A DNA stretch of 64,000 nt, from assembly GCF_010686685.1 (NCBI RefSeq), contig NZ_JAAGWD010000006.1:124001-188000 (forward strand), given 5' to 3'. A program made the translations under genes and the position numbers. The DNA is from Pontibacter burrus (GTDB taxonomy: Bacteria; Bacteroidota; Bacteroidia; Cytophagales; Hymenobacteraceae). The notes below the pieces were generated by a model that was given only the letters and a program-made list of their open reading frames with translations, did not search any database and was not told the origin of the DNA. Of the stretch, positions 9,285 through 18,270 are shown one piece after another. Every line of letters starts with the position of its first letter. Positions within the stretch are counted from its first letter, which is position 1.

Positions 9285-9785
9285 TTAGTTTGTTTCTGCA
9301 GGTGTTGCCGCACGAATCCGCTTAGAAGCCGTTTTAATGGAGGCACGGACACGATTAAGTAGTTCACTCAATTGTTTTGCTTCTTCCTCGCTCAGACTAT
9401 GCATCAGGCTATCAAGCAAATCAAGTTCCGGCTCAATGGAAGCCATAAGCCGGTGCCCTTTCTCAGAGAGTACAATATTAACCAGGCGCTTGTCGTGCGG
9501 ATTTTGCTTTACATCAACAAACCCTTTGGCATTCAGACGGCTTACCAATCTGGATGTATCCGACATCTTATCGAGCATTTTGTCGCGCAGACCAGAAGTA
9601 GACAGTGGACTTGGGTAGTTGTCCCTTAAAATCCGAAGCGCATTATATTGCTGTGTGGTAAGGCCATAGCGTTTGAAGAAGCTCTCGTAGCCGTTAAAAA
9701 GGAATCCACACGTGTATAACAGGTTAAGACTTGCTTTCTGCCATTCGTTACGGATCTTAACCCCAACTTCATTTTCAAAATGCAT
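9285..9785 (-). CDS. MarR family transcriptional regulator
   Basis: 166 residues with a winged helix-turn-helix fold: FKRYGLTTQQYNALRILRDN, STSGLRDKMLDKMSDTSRLVSRLNAKG (recognition helix) and the wing VDVKQNPHDKRLVNIVLSEKG. MarR proteins are dimeric and often respond to small phenolic ligands or oxidation. One Cys (residue 26) is near the N-terminus. No obvious regulated neighbour is divergently placed: the upstream gene, a YjbR protein, is on the same strand 180 bases away. The target is unknown. Confidence 0.9.
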   Translation of the reverse strand: MHFENEVGVKIRNEWQKASLNLLYTCGFLFNGYESFFKRYGLTTQQYNALRILRDNYPSPLSTSGLRDKMLDKMSDTSRLVSRLNAKGFVDVKQNPHDKRLVNIVLSEKGHRLMASIEPELDLLDSLMHSLSEEEAKQLSELLNRVRASIKTASKRIRAATPAETN

Positions 9786-13961: not shown

Positions 13962-16151
13962 TTAGTTACGGAACATCAGTTCACGATACTTCACTAAAGG
14001 CCAATCCTCATCATCAACCATCAGTTCCAGCTTATCTACACTATTGCGGATAACATCGAAATAGGTGAAAACCTCTTCGCGGTACATGATCGCTTTATCG
14101 CGCACATCTTCCAGTTTATTAGCTACTTTACGGGTTTTAATCATGTCCACCACATTGCGCTGAATGAGGGATATATGACGGGAAATACGCTTGATACTCT
14201 CCAGGGTAGTCTCAATGTACTCATCCTCAAGCCCAAGTTCTTTTAAGCCGCGAATGTTCTGGATCAGTTTATTTTGATATGCGATTGCTGTCGGGATAAC
14301 GTGGTTCATGGCCACATCGCCCATTACACGCGATTCGATCTGAATTTTCTTGATGTAATCTTCCAGGAGAATCTCGTGGCGTGCCTCCAGTTCTATTGCC
14401 GTAAAAATACCGTGGCGGGCAAAAAGCTCAATTACTTCCGGACGGTGATATACATCCAGCGCTAACGGTGTCGACTTGATATTAGACAAACCACGGCGTG
14501 CTGCTTCTTCTTCCCACTCGCTGGAGTAACCATTTCCTTCAAAACGGATAGCCTTTGATGCAACCACATACTCGCGCAGCACCTGAATAATGGCCAGCTC
14601 TTTCTTCATTCCTTTCTCAATCAGTGCATCTACCTCTGTGCGGAACTCGATCAGCTGATCGGCAACGATCGTGTTTAGTACCGTCATGGATGAAGAACTG
14701 TTGGCTGAAGAACCTACCGCACGGAATTCGAATTTATTACCGGTAAAGGCAAATGGTGATGTGCGGTTACGGTCTGTGTTGTCACGAAGTACTTCTGGAA
14801 TGCGGTCGATACCCAGTTTCAGGTACATGTTGTCGCCTTTTTCCATTGGTACTTTAGAGGTACGCTCCAGTTCATCTAAAACCGCAGATAGCTGCTGCCC
14901 AACAAACACCGACATAATAGCTGGCGGCGCTTCATTAGCACCCAGGCGGTGGTCGTTGCTGGCCGAAGCTATACTTGCACGAAGCAGGTCGGCATGTTTA
15001 TGCACGGCCATTACCGTGTTAATGAAGAAAGTAAGGAACTGCAGGTTCTCTTTCGGCTTTTTGCCCGGGCTCAGCAGGTTAACGCCTGTATTGGTGCTAA
15101 GTGCCCAGTTGTTGTGCTTACCGCTGCCGTTTACGCCTTTATATGGTTTTTCGTGAAGTAAAACTTTAAAGTTATGACGTTCCGCAACACGGCCCATGAT
15201 ATCCATTAGCAACTGGTTGTGGTCTACGGCAAGGTTGGCGTCTTCGTAAGTTGGGGCGCACTCAAATTGGTTAGGAGCAACTTCATTGTGGCGGGTGCGC
15301 AGTGGTATACCCAGCTTCCAGGCAGATTTCTCAAAATCAACCATAAATGCATGCACACGGCTCGGGATAGCCCCGAAGTAATGATCTTCCAACTGCTGGC
15401 CTTTTGCCGGGGCGTGCCCAAATAAGGTACGGCCGGTAACCACCATGTCAGGGCGGGCTTCGTAAAGCGAGCGGTCCACCAGGAAGTACTCCTGCTCTAT
15501 ACCCAGCGTAGTATTTACTTTGGTTACGTCCTTATCAAAATACTGGCAAACCGGCAATGCAGCATTGCTCAGCAGGTTCAGTGATTTTAACAAAGGTGTT
15601 TTATAATCCAGGGCTTCGCCTGTGTAAGAAACAAATATAGTTGGGATACACAGCGTTTTAGCACCAGCGTTCTCGATCAGGAAGGCAGGTGAAGAAGGGT
15701 CCCAGGCACTATAGCCACGTGCCTCAAACGTATTACGGATACCACCGCTTGGGAAAGACGATGCATCAGGTTCCTGCTGTACCAGCGCGCTTCCTCTGAA
15801 ACTTTCAATAGCTTCTCCATCAGGCGTAAGATCAAAGAAAGAGTCATGTTTTTCGGCTGTAGCACCATTAAGTGGCTGAAACCAGTGCGTATAGTGTGTT
15901 GCACCCTTGCTCATGGCCCAGGTTTTCATGGCTGCGGCTACTGCATCAGCCAGGTTACGATCTACCTGTTCGCCTGCTTCAATTGTTCTGGCCAGTTTTT
16001 TATAGTACTCCGATGAAAGCGTTGCGCGCATTGCCTGCATGCTGAAGACGTTTTCTCCGAAATAATCAGAAATGATGTGGGAAGGAAGATTTACTTCACA
16101 GGGTTTGCGCTGGCTTACCAGCTCAAGTGCTTTAAAACGAAGTGTTGCCAT
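13962..16151 (-). CDS. glnN: Glutamine synthetase type III (GlnN)
   Basis: Assimilates ammonia into glutamine. About 729 residues, the size of type III enzymes and much longer than type I. Visible are HYTHWFQPLNGATAEKHDSF, the EQEYFLVD glutamate-binding strand, ANQFECAPTYEDANLA-like segment (NEVAPNQFECAP), the HEKPYKGVNGSGKHNNWAL ammonium/ATP site and NRTSPFAFTGNKFEFRAVGS. I place the start at ATG 16151 (MATLRFKALELVSQ) rather than the GTG at 16184, because a TAATTTTG -7 element overlaps that GTG. Two paired dyads upstream (16219-16240 and 16270-16293) suggest nitrogen-responsive control. Confidence 0.95.
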   Translation of the reverse strand: MATLRFKALELVSQRKPCEVNLPSHIISDYFGENVFSMQAMRATLSSEYYKKLARTIEAGEQVDRNLADAVAAAMKTWAMSKGATHYTHWFQPLNGATAEKHDSFFDLTPDGEAIESFRGSALVQQEPDASSFPSGGIRNTFEARGYSAWDPSSPAFLIENAGAKTLCIPTIFVSYTGEALDYKTPLLKSLNLLSNAALPVCQYFDKDVTKVNTTLGIEQEYFLVDRSLYEARPDMVVTGRTLFGHAPAKGQQLEDHYFGAIPSRVHAFMVDFEKSAWKLGIPLRTRHNEVAPNQFECAPTYEDANLAVDHNQLLMDIMGRVAERHNFKVLLHEKPYKGVNGSGKHNNWALSTNTGVNLLSPGKKPKENLQFLTFFINTVMAVHKHADLLRASIASASNDHRLGANEAPPAIMSVFVGQQLSAVLDELERTSKVPMEKGDNMYLKLGIDRIPEVLRDNTDRNRTSPFAFTGNKFEFRAVGSSANSSSSMTVLNTIVADQLIEFRTEVDALIEKGMKKELAIIQVLREYVVASKAIRFEGNGYSSEWEEEAARRGLSNIKSTPLALDVYHRPEVIELFARHGIFTAIELEARHEILLEDYIKKIQIESRVMGDVAMNHVIPTAIAYQNKLIQNIRGLKELGLEDEYIETTLESIKRISRHISLIQRNVVDMIKTRKVANKLEDVRDKAIMYREEVFTYFDVIRNSVDKLELMVDDEDWPLVKYRELMFRN

Positions 16152-16183
16152 TGGGTTTTTGGGTTGGGTGATGTTTGATGTCA

Positions 16184-16191
16184 CAAAATTA
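16184..16191 (-). promoter_or_regulatory. -7 element of the glnN promoter
   Basis: On the minus strand this reads TAATTTTG, matching the Bacteroidota TAnnTTTG consensus. A TTG about 18 bases further upstream could serve as the -33 element. It places transcription start about 25 bases before ATG 16151. Confidence 0.6.
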
Positions 16192-16218
16192 GGAGAAAAA
16201 TTTTATGCACAACTAAAG

Positions 16219-16240
16219 CACCCTATTTTTTTAAGGGGTG
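16219..16240. promoter_or_regulatory. Putative operator dyad 1 upstream of glnN
   Basis: The 22-bp inverted repeat has arms CACCCTA and AAGGGGTG around an all-T centre. It lies about 40 bp upstream of the glnN -7 element and is paired with a second similar dyad 52 bp away centre to centre. Confidence 0.55.
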
Positions 16241-16269
16241 TTTTGAAAATTTATATACATTTTCTAGAT

Positions 16270-16293
16270 CACCCCTATAATTAAGTAGGGATG
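16270..16293. promoter_or_regulatory. Putative operator dyad 2 upstream of glnN
   Basis: The arms CACCCCTA and TAGGGATG surround an 8-base AT-rich centre. Its architecture matches dyad 1, and the 52-bp spacing equals about five helical turns, so both would face the same side of the DNA. Confidence 0.55.
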
Positions 16294-16383
16294 TGTTTGA
16301 AAACACTCCACTTTCTTCAATAAACCCTATAGTTTATAACACCCTCCATTGATTTTTTCCTACGGAATCTACAATAGATAATT

Positions 16384-16418
16384 TTTGTTAGAAACGGGCA
16401 GCTAACTGCTTATCTTTG
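16384..16418 (+). promoter_or_regulatory. Promoter of the LTA-synthase-like gene (probably leaderless)
   Basis: TTTG at 16384-16387 and TATCTTTG at 16411-16418 fit the -33/-7 pattern of the Bacteroidota primary sigma factor, with 23 bases between them. The GTG start codon begins only 4 bases after the -7 element, leaving essentially no untranslated leader. Confidence 0.6.
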
Positions 16419-16422
16419 CACC

Positions 16423-18270
16423 GTGAAAAAAGACCTTTACTTTCAGCCCTTATATTTCCTGTTCTGGGTTTTCTTTTTTATAGTTTCCAGGGCGGCATTT
16501 TTATTATACCATGCCGATAACAGCGCAGAGCTAACTATAGCCGAACTGGCTGGTACTTTCTGGTATGGCTCTAAGCTTGATTTATCTTTTGCGTCTTACC
16601 TGAGCGCTATTCCCTTTATACTTGCTTTTGTAGGCTATTTATGGAAACGCTTTCCGGCTGCGGGCATTATTCGCTGGTATACTTTTGTGTTGCTGGGAAT
16701 TTTGTCTGTGATACTCGCTGCCGACCTGGAGCTATATTCTTACTGGGGCTTCCGGATTGATGCAACTCCCCTGCAGTATCTGAACACGCCTGCTGAAATG
16801 GCTGCATCAGCTGGATCTGCTCCACTCTTCCTGCTTTCCTTTGTAGCCCTGGCCTTAACGGGCGTATTTGTGCTTGTTTACAAGCTATTTTTTGATCTTA
16901 CTAAATTCAGAACACTGCATTTCAGCTGGCTAGCTGCCGGACTTGCTTTCTTTATGATTGCCCTGCTTATTTTGCCGATGCGTGGGGGCATACAGCAAAT
17001 CCCGATAAACCAGAGCATTGCCTACTTCTCCGACAGACCATTTACCAATCACGCCAGCCTGAATATGTCGTGGAATCTGATGCACTCTATGCTGAAATAT
17101 GGCGAGACTAGTGAGAACCCATATTTGTACCTGCCAGCCGATTCGGCAGAACAGAAAGTACAGCAACTATACGGATCTGTAGCTCCGGACTCAGCACAGC
17201 ATCAGGTGGTAAAGCCGGGTAAGCCCAATGTTCTTTTCATCATTCTGGAAAGCTATACTGCTAAACTGGTTGGTCATTTAGGCGGTGAAAAAGGAATTAC
17301 CCCTAACCTGGACAAGCTGGCAGCTCAAGGCGTAACGTTTACAAACTTTTATGCCAGCGGCGACCGAAGCCAGAAGGGCATGGTAGCGATCTTAAGCGGT
17401 TATCCGGTGCAGCCAGCCACATCTATCGTTAAAGTCCCTAAAAAATCTGAAAAACTTCCGCAACTAAGTCGCACGTTTGAAGCGCTGGGGTACAAGACGA
17501 GTTTCTTTTATGGCGGTGAGCTGGAGTTTGCCAACCTGAAATCTTATTTCGTGAATGGCGGCTACGATAAGCTGATAGATAAGTATGCTTTCCCTGCAGA
17601 GAGCTATAACAGCAAATGGGGCGCACACGACCATGTGCTGTTCGACAGGGTACTGCAGGATCTTAACGAAGAAAAAGAGCCGTTTTTCAGTACCGTTTAT
17701 ACCTTGAGCAGTCACGAGCCTTTTGAAATTCCGATTGAGCCTAAGTTTGCAGGGAATGATGTGCCGAATAAGTTCAGAAATAGCGTGTACTACACGGACT
17801 GGGCGCTGGGCCGTTTTGTGAAGGAAGCTAAGAAACAGTCCTGGTGGCAAAACACACTGGTAGTTATAGTTGCAGATCACGGTCACCCGCTTCCTGCCGA
17901 AGATCCGAACCATGCGCCATCTAAATTCAAAATACCGTTGATACTGACAGGTGGTGCCATGGCCGTACAGAACGAGCGAATAAATGCACTGGGCTCACAA
18001 ACTGATATTGCTGCTACTTTGCTGGCACAGCTACATATACCATATAAACAGGACTATGTTTGGAGCCGGAACTTACTCGCTCCTACCCAAAACCCATTTG
18101 CTTTCTATGTTTTTCAGGATGGCTTTGGATACATTACCCCGGCCGGCGAAGTGACTTTCGACAATGCATCTAAAAGAGTGATAACCCGCGATGAAGGTGT
18201 AACAGACGAGCAGCTCGAAATGGGTAAAGCCTACCTGCAATACTCATTCGCCGATTTTCTTACTAAATAA
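16423..18270 (+). CDS. LTA synthase family membrane sulfatase/phosphoglycerol transferase
   Basis: A 615-residue inner-membrane protein. Five hydrophobic segments in the first ~190 residues (for example FLFWVFFFIVSRAAFLLY) anchor a periplasmic sulfatase-fold domain. That domain starts at PNVLFIILESYTAKLVG, where Thr replaces the usual nucleophile region of arylsulfatases. It continues through TNFYASGDRSQKGMVAILSG and VVIVADHGHPLPAEDPNHAP. Gram-positive relatives polymerise glycerol phosphate; in Bacteroidota the substrate is unknown, perhaps a periplasmic glycan or lipid. The GTG start follows a promoter -7 element directly. Confidence 0.88.
   Translation: MKKDLYFQPLYFLFWVFFFIVSRAAFLLYHADNSAELTIAELAGTFWYGSKLDLSFASYLSAIPFILAFVGYLWKRFPAAGIIRWYTFVLLGILSVILAADLELYSYWGFRIDATPLQYLNTPAEMAASAGSAPLFLLSFVALALTGVFVLVYKLFFDLTKFRTLHFSWLAAGLAFFMIALLILPMRGGIQQIPINQSIAYFSDRPFTNHASLNMSWNLMHSMLKYGETSENPYLYLPADSAEQKVQQLYGSVAPDSAQHQVVKPGKPNVLFIILESYTAKLVGHLGGEKGITPNLDKLAAQGVTFTNFYASGDRSQKGMVAILSGYPVQPATSIVKVPKKSEKLPQLSRTFEALGYKTSFFYGGELEFANLKSYFVNGGYDKLIDKYAFPAESYNSKWGAHDHVLFDRVLQDLNEEKEPFFSTVYTLSSHEPFEIPIEPKFAGNDVPNKFRNSVYYTDWALGRFVKEAKKQSWWQNTLVVIVADHGHPLPAEDPNHAPSKFKIPLILTGGAMAVQNERINALGSQTDIAATLLAQLHIPYKQDYVWSRNLLAPTQNPFAFYVFQDGFGYITPAGEVTFDNASKRVITRDEGVTDEQLEMGKAYLQYSFADFLTK

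Follow-up and report, generated by a model that had tools for sequence, protein, structure and literature searches.

A phased operator array upstream of glnN probably marks a nitrogen-assimilation regulon in Hymenobacteraceae

The two dyads upstream of glnN in Pontibacter burrus are probably units of a phased operator array. Comparison of DNA sequences suggests that arrays of this type mark a regulon for nitrogen assimilation in the Hymenobacteraceae and, in weaker form, in certain other families within the order and class. The original prediction described paired inverted dyads, 52 bp apart and at about −48 and −100 from the inferred start, as a binding site for a nitrogen-responsive regulator. 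Direct reading of the window (the whole stretch of DNA that was analysed, 64,000 nucleotides) confirms that both are present at that distance: the first consists of CACCCTA (16219–16225), N7, and AAGGGGTG (16233–16240), and the second of CACCCCTA (16270–16277), N8, and TAGGGATG (16286–16293). Their centres, 16229.5 and 16281.5, are separated by 52 bp, or approximately five helical turns, and counted from a predicted start near 16178 they lie at about −52 and −104, in close agreement with the positions claimed. The description as paired inverted dyads holds in that both exist but is incomplete, because the array has two to three units, with a repeat of about 54 bp, and half-sites that may also be in tandem. 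The weak third unit (Table 1), which was absent from the original prediction, fits the −138 and −154 positions of relatives, but its E value with the sequence profile R1 described below is only 1.3.

Table 1. Features of the glnN upstream region, in window coordinates
Feature	Position	Strand	Details
glnN, type III glutamine synthetase (GSIII), gene served by the array	13962..16151	-	PF12437, PF18318, PF00120
-7 box TAATTTTG (TAnnTTTG type), glnN promoter	16184..16191	-	sequence; aligned in relatives
-33 TTG element, glnN promoter	16210..16212	-	18 nt upstream of TAATTTTG
Array unit 1 (first dyad)	16219..16240	.	tracts CCC 16221-16223 and GGGG 16235-16238; relatives keep -31/-47 from -7 box
Array unit 2 (second dyad)	16270..16293	.	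tracts CCCC 16272-16275 and GGG 16288-16290; relatives keep -85/-101
Array unit 3, weak	16324..16345	.	tandem CCC 16325-16327 and CCC 16342-16344 on + strand (GG in glnN orientation)

The glnN product matches PF12437 (GSIII_N) with an E value of 1.4e-77, and its closest relative among the best 80 of 364, from Pontibacter sp. Tf4, is 93% identical; the conserved start is the ATG at 16151 and not the GTG at 16184 taken by the ORF finder. Between the dyads and the gene lies a Bacteroidota-type promoter, TTG-N18-TAATTTTG, from which transcription would begin near 16178; the available text of PMC9723704 gives TAnnTTTG as the −7 consensus of flavobacterial sigma-A. A structured RNA was ruled out as an explanation of the region, since the two Rfam matches between 15900 and 16600 are both far below the gathering score and the array at glnN is upstream of the promoter. 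When 123 loci were clustered, no regulator gene was found directly beside glnN in the top 25 clusters. The most widely shared neighbour was a divergent sulfatase, in 79 loci, followed by an MtaB-like gene, in 66. In the window, the sulfatase gene (16423–18270) is LtaS-like (PF00884), and a TATCTTTG box at 16411–16425 is located four bases ahead of its predicted GTG start, a placement that suggests either a leaderless sulfatase transcript or a wrong start call. The array occupies the intergenic region common to glnN and this gene and could affect the sulfatase as well.

In a single sequence the dyads do not exceed chance, and their significance comes from relatives. The pattern CACCC-N8..16-GGGTG occurs once in the window, compared with 0.26 expected (21 of 100 shuffles contain at least one), and 11 times in the genome as against 7 for the reversed control; a search with the 24-bp dyad allowing one mismatch found one match with 0.65 expected. 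Of the 80 glnN relatives kept, 77 gave a recognised start (L008, L012, and L027 were dropped), and after removal of L049 and L062, which have no −7 box, L019, whose box is odd, and L059, where the wrong box was taken, 74 promoters including that of the window were anchored on the −7 box. Tracts, defined as three or more C or G, were counted within 3 nt of a given position from this box. At −31, −47, −85, −101, −138, and −154, the Pontibacter-type group (the window and L001–L034) has tracts in 24, 26, 21, 20, 16, and 14 of 31 promoters (background mean 1.0, maximum 7), and loci L035–L080 have them in 31, 14, 31, 9, 21, and 15 of 43 (background mean 5.0, maximum 13). Absence of the dyads upstream of orthologous glnN genes had been named in advance as the observation that would count against the site; what was found is a set of fixed tract positions across the 74 Hymenobacteraceae promoters, with weak units or none in some relatives.

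The tracts are also regularly spaced. In the Pontibacter-type group, tract pairs 14–17, 36–39, and 51–55 bp apart number 53, 35, and 63, respectively, compared with shuffle means of 9.5, 8.5, and 9.8 (maxima 20, 16, and 19), and both in this group and at glnK all three spacings exceed every one of 200 shuffles. The 51–55 bp peak is found at glnK (29 versus 3.9, maximum 9) and at nirB-cobA (25 versus 4.9, maximum 12). In L035–L080 this peak is clear (62 versus 25.3, maximum 41) and the 14–17 bp spacing is in slight excess (41 versus 24.5, maximum 38), but there is no excess at 36–39 bp (20 versus 21.3, maximum 37). Each unit is built of an A/T-rich core with a C/G tract on either side, the two tracts being some 16 bp from each other, and the units repeat every 52–54 bp. 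Among the 126 tract pairs 14–17 bp apart in four promoter sets, the half-site orientations are CG in 46, GG in 42, CC in 33, and GC in 5, so that 75 pairs are tandem, the inverted arrangement (C..G) is also common, and the everted (G..C) is rare. A simple symmetric dimer would not usually have such a mixture of inverted and tandem half-sites, and this is the most peculiar feature of the element.

The genome of the window strain seems, from its predicted gene content, to assimilate ammonium without an AmtB transporter, PII, or GOGAT: although 99.99% complete, it contains no match to PF00909 (AmtB), PF00543 (PII), or PF04898 (GltB), and co-regulation of other nitrogen genes was therefore sought in relatives. 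Among 150 family genomes, sites are recognisable by eye at all 15 canonical glnK loci, although weak in four (L153, L154, L156, and L164); 10 of the 25 PII-like loci do not match the glnK start pattern and were left out of this reading. The expectation that the dyads would recur at amtB and glnB-type genes is thus borne out for glnK-amtB. At glnK, the distal dyad includes the −33 TTG and the proximal site is located between the inferred start and the ATG; upstream of one glnK (L161, in G024) the distal dyad belongs to a longer near-palindrome, AAGCGCTTACCCCCTATTGGCTATAAGGGGGTAAGCGCTT. The same expectation failed for gltB, which was rejected as a target after none of nine upstream regions gave a convincing match to R1 (best E 0.63). 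Nor was an array found at nine amtB loci that are not beside glnK (best E 0.14, not placed at the start), the exception being one in G182.

R1 is a sequence-only profile made from 31 arrays (19 at glnN, 10 at glnK, and 2 at nitrate-sensor operons). In a test on 60 loci it recognised 14 of 25 held-out glnN and 3 of 5 held-out glnK loci at E < 0.01, with none of 22 controls below E 0.5; the other two held-out glnK loci had E values of 0.08 and 1.1, glnN matches in L024, L034, and L035 were weak (E 0.94–3.7), and L030, L031, and L043 had no match upstream of glnN. Applied to 50 genomes of the genus Pontibacter, it found at least 68 separate places below E 0.01, spread over 48 genomes, in a scan that reached matches to about E 0.09 under stricter filters and may have missed weak places. 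These 68 comprise 44 at glnN, 10 at glnK, 8 at nirB-cobA, one at a nitrate-sensor operon, one at amtB (PF00909), one upstream of a TonB-receptor-like gene, and three that are unrelated, so that 64 of the 68 belong to nitrogen-assimilation genes. It should be noted that the matches at glnN and glnK are in part a product of the training set, whereas those at nirB-cobA, which was not included in it, are not. Including a ninth locus with E 0.02, the array lies between nirB and cobA in nine genomes. One locus (L330) was identified by matches of NirB to TIGR02374, through its N-terminal part only (256.5 bits, the cut-off of 578 being for the whole protein), and of CobA to TIGR01469, and the other eight were labelled by matching start sequences. 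In the window genome no site other than that at glnN falls below E 0.05, and six of the 50 genomes (G007, G014, G024, G161, G176, and G182) have no place at glnN below E 0.01.

Strict patterns were searched as well. The tandem one, with a single mismatch allowed, occurs at 26 places in the 50 genomes, 11 of them at glnN or glnK, 14 inside reading frames, and one in another intergenic region, and all seven of its exact matches are at glnN or glnK; a strict inverted pattern occurs at nine places, six at glnN or glnK, one at a nitrate-sensor operon, and two that are unrelated. In G002 the array precedes an operon with genes for a TrpD2/YbiB-like protein, a PilJ-domain sensor kinase, and a NarL-type regulator; in the array-linked operon at L230:5529–9000 a TrpD2/YbiB-like gene stands ahead of the nitrate sensor kinase and its NarL-type regulator, and in G182 a second TrpD2-like gene before such a nitrate sensor also carries an array. 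The same cis-element is thus present at several unlinked nitrogen genes, namely glnN, glnK-amtB, nirB-cobA, the nitrate-sensor operon, and amtB, of which nirB/cobA and the nitrate-sensor operon lie beyond the genes first listed for comparison. Its presence at the nitrogen-assimilation genes of relatives supports the original reading of the dyads as a site for a nitrogen-responsive regulator, to which a protein would bind. An array is also found upstream of TonB-dependent-receptor-like genes in two genomes, where the gene on its other side encodes an M20 peptidase (L336) or a Hint-module-like protein (L349).

Outside the family, matches to R1 below E 0.1 are placed at the start of glnN in 5 of 27 loci from the same order (L131, L137, L140, L141, and L144) and in 4 of 12 from the same class (L277, L279, L281, and L282). 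The match in L283 is weaker (E 0.32), and in L278 the array was recognised chiefly by eye (E 2.6; ACCCCTATTTTTTTAGGGGT). Most of the families tested in the order and class have no R1 match; L135 was left out of this comparison. In other classes, none of 14 loci (L285–L298) is matched at the start of the gene, and the stray match at E < 0.1 in L294 represents the chance level for them.

The geometry of the array bears on how it might act. A DNA-binding protein would bind each unit as a dimer, neighbouring dimers would join cooperatively along approximately the same side of the helix, and at glnN the bound dimers would contact RNA polymerase, most likely activating transcription when nitrogen is short. 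At glnN, where the promoter is of the housekeeping type, the nearest tract directly adjoins the −33 element, and tracts at the nitrate-sensor operons are at −33/−48 in G002 and −39.5/−55 in G182; these positions, adjoining or just upstream of −33, fit activation. The glnK array spans the promoter, an arrangement compatible with repression or tuning of expression by the same protein, and at nirB the tracts are 57–241 nt above candidate −7 boxes. Since the array is upstream of the promoter at glnN, across it at glnK, and differently placed at nirB, a single mode of action does not fit all. It is somewhat unlikely that the array is a repressor array, bound in nitrogen excess to shut off glnN, glnK-amtB, and nirB/cobA and released on limitation: this would agree with the distal dyad of glnK holding the −33 TTG, with the proximal site between its start and ATG, and with the way unit 1 abuts the glnN −33 element, but the glnN units extend to about −154 from the −7 box with none over the box, and the nearest tracts at the G002 and G182 nitrate-sensor operons are upstream of the −7 box.

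Among proteins that might bind the array, a NarL/FixJ-type response regulator, with half-sites tandem or inverted, is unlikely. The NarL-type heptamer consensus is TACYYMT, and heptamers are arranged as 7-2-7. Such a regulator would accommodate the predominance of CG, GG, and CC over GC pairs noted above, in G002 there is a NarL-type regulator gene downstream of the array, and heptamers in reverse orientation occur in 26 of the 74 promoters, compared with 13.2 in shuffles (maximum 20), those in the other orientation being found in 13 (7.2 in shuffles, maximum 13); however, the heptamer excess may follow from the tracts alone, and the 7-2-7 arrangement is found in none of the 74. The G002 sensor/NarL-type pair in particular was judged unlikely to be a universal regulator because the window genome has no close relative of its sensor, and such relatives occur in 12 of 150 family genomes, a count that includes one cut at a contig end. 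A MerR-type protein is quite improbable. In operators of MerR-family proteins such as CadR, the half-sites are ACCCT/AGGGT at a distance of about 16 bp, and the array shares both this distance and the ACCCT/AGGGT core, but the 75 tandem pairs of 126, beside 46 inverted C..G and 5 G..C, depart from a fixed two-fold symmetry and are ill-suited to a two-fold symmetric dimer. It is very improbable that the regulator is the MarR-family protein (PF01047, E 3.4e-8) encoded about 4 kb downstream of glnN (window 9285–9785, minus strand): 14 of 80 glnN loci have relatives of it on that side, and all 14 are Pontibacter records in which the retrieved flank stops close to the gene, but it is neither adjacent to glnN nor seen near other array genes, and has no array by it in the window. 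None of these three candidates is well supported. It is hardly credible that no nitrogen regulator is involved and that the dyads are A/T-rich palindromes that arose by chance or reflect a DNA shape conserved in strong promoters. The pattern in the window is not significant by itself, and the window alone could not rule out a chance palindrome, which conservation of tract spacing and positions in relatives did; tract positions are fixed across 74 promoters, the array recurs at nirB-cobA without training, and gltB has none.

It is quite possible, though put forward tentatively, that the array serves for the docking of a master regulator of nitrogen assimilation in Bacteroidota that has so far gone unrecognised. 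Such a regulator would act without NtrC-, NtcA-, or GlnR-type sites and, in the window genome, without PII; it would form a cooperative oligomer on a 54-bp repeat and accept half-sites that are inverted or tandem but rarely everted. A conserved cis-element with a short target list offers a bait for this regulator and a reporter with which to assay it, and the array provides a means of predicting which genes respond to nitrogen where a genome lacks PII and AmtB.

The original prediction knew of no such site in this group, and a literature search likewise found no description of one. The available portions of two Bacteroidota transcriptome papers (PMC9723704, PMC5552732) name no nitrogen-assimilation transcription factor; in the latter, glnK, amtB, and GSIII-2 transcripts of Prevotella ruminicola are reported to be higher on non-limiting ammonium, and the portion available names no regulator for them. 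Sensor/NarL-type pairs like that of G002 are called narHK/narRR in the available text of a study of nitrate sensing in Bacteroidetes (PMC8199190). The link with this system is that the array is upstream of the TrpD2-like gene preceding such a sensor gene in G002 and G182, but the pair is there a target of the array, unlike a universal regulator, and has the restricted distribution given above. Consensus sites of NtcA, Bacillus GlnR/TnrA, NtrC, and sigma-54 are absent from the 74 promoters or occur in them at shuffle level. The NtrC enhancer core is GCAC-N7-GTGC, and sigma-54 promoters have −24/−12 elements. The array resembles the NtrC/sigma-54 system in the presence of multiple dyads upstream of a glutamine synthetase gene and also at glnK-amtB and nitrate genes, but the glnN promoter here is of the TAnnTTTG type; neither the NtrC core nor a sigma-54 −24/−12 promoter is found in any of the 74, and a relaxed GG-N10-GC occurs at shuffle level (37 versus 34.3). 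The NAC protein, of the LysR family, recognises ATA-N9-TAT, which is in slight excess (17 of 74 promoters, compared with 9.8 in shuffles, maximum 16), possibly owing to the A/T-rich cores. NtcA, whose site is GTA-N8-TAC, controls a glnN in cyanobacteria, and its regulon has the same class of targets, including glnN and nitrate assimilation; its site is found in 2 of the 74 promoters (3.0 in shuffles). The GlnR and TnrA proteins of Bacillus belong to the MerR family, bind the operator consensus TGTNA-N7-TNACA, which is present in none of the 74, and govern small regulons centred on glutamine synthetase and glnK-amtB. The array is like their operators in having dyads just upstream of a glutamine synthetase promoter, and unlike them in its C/G tracts 16 bp apart and its 54-bp repeat.
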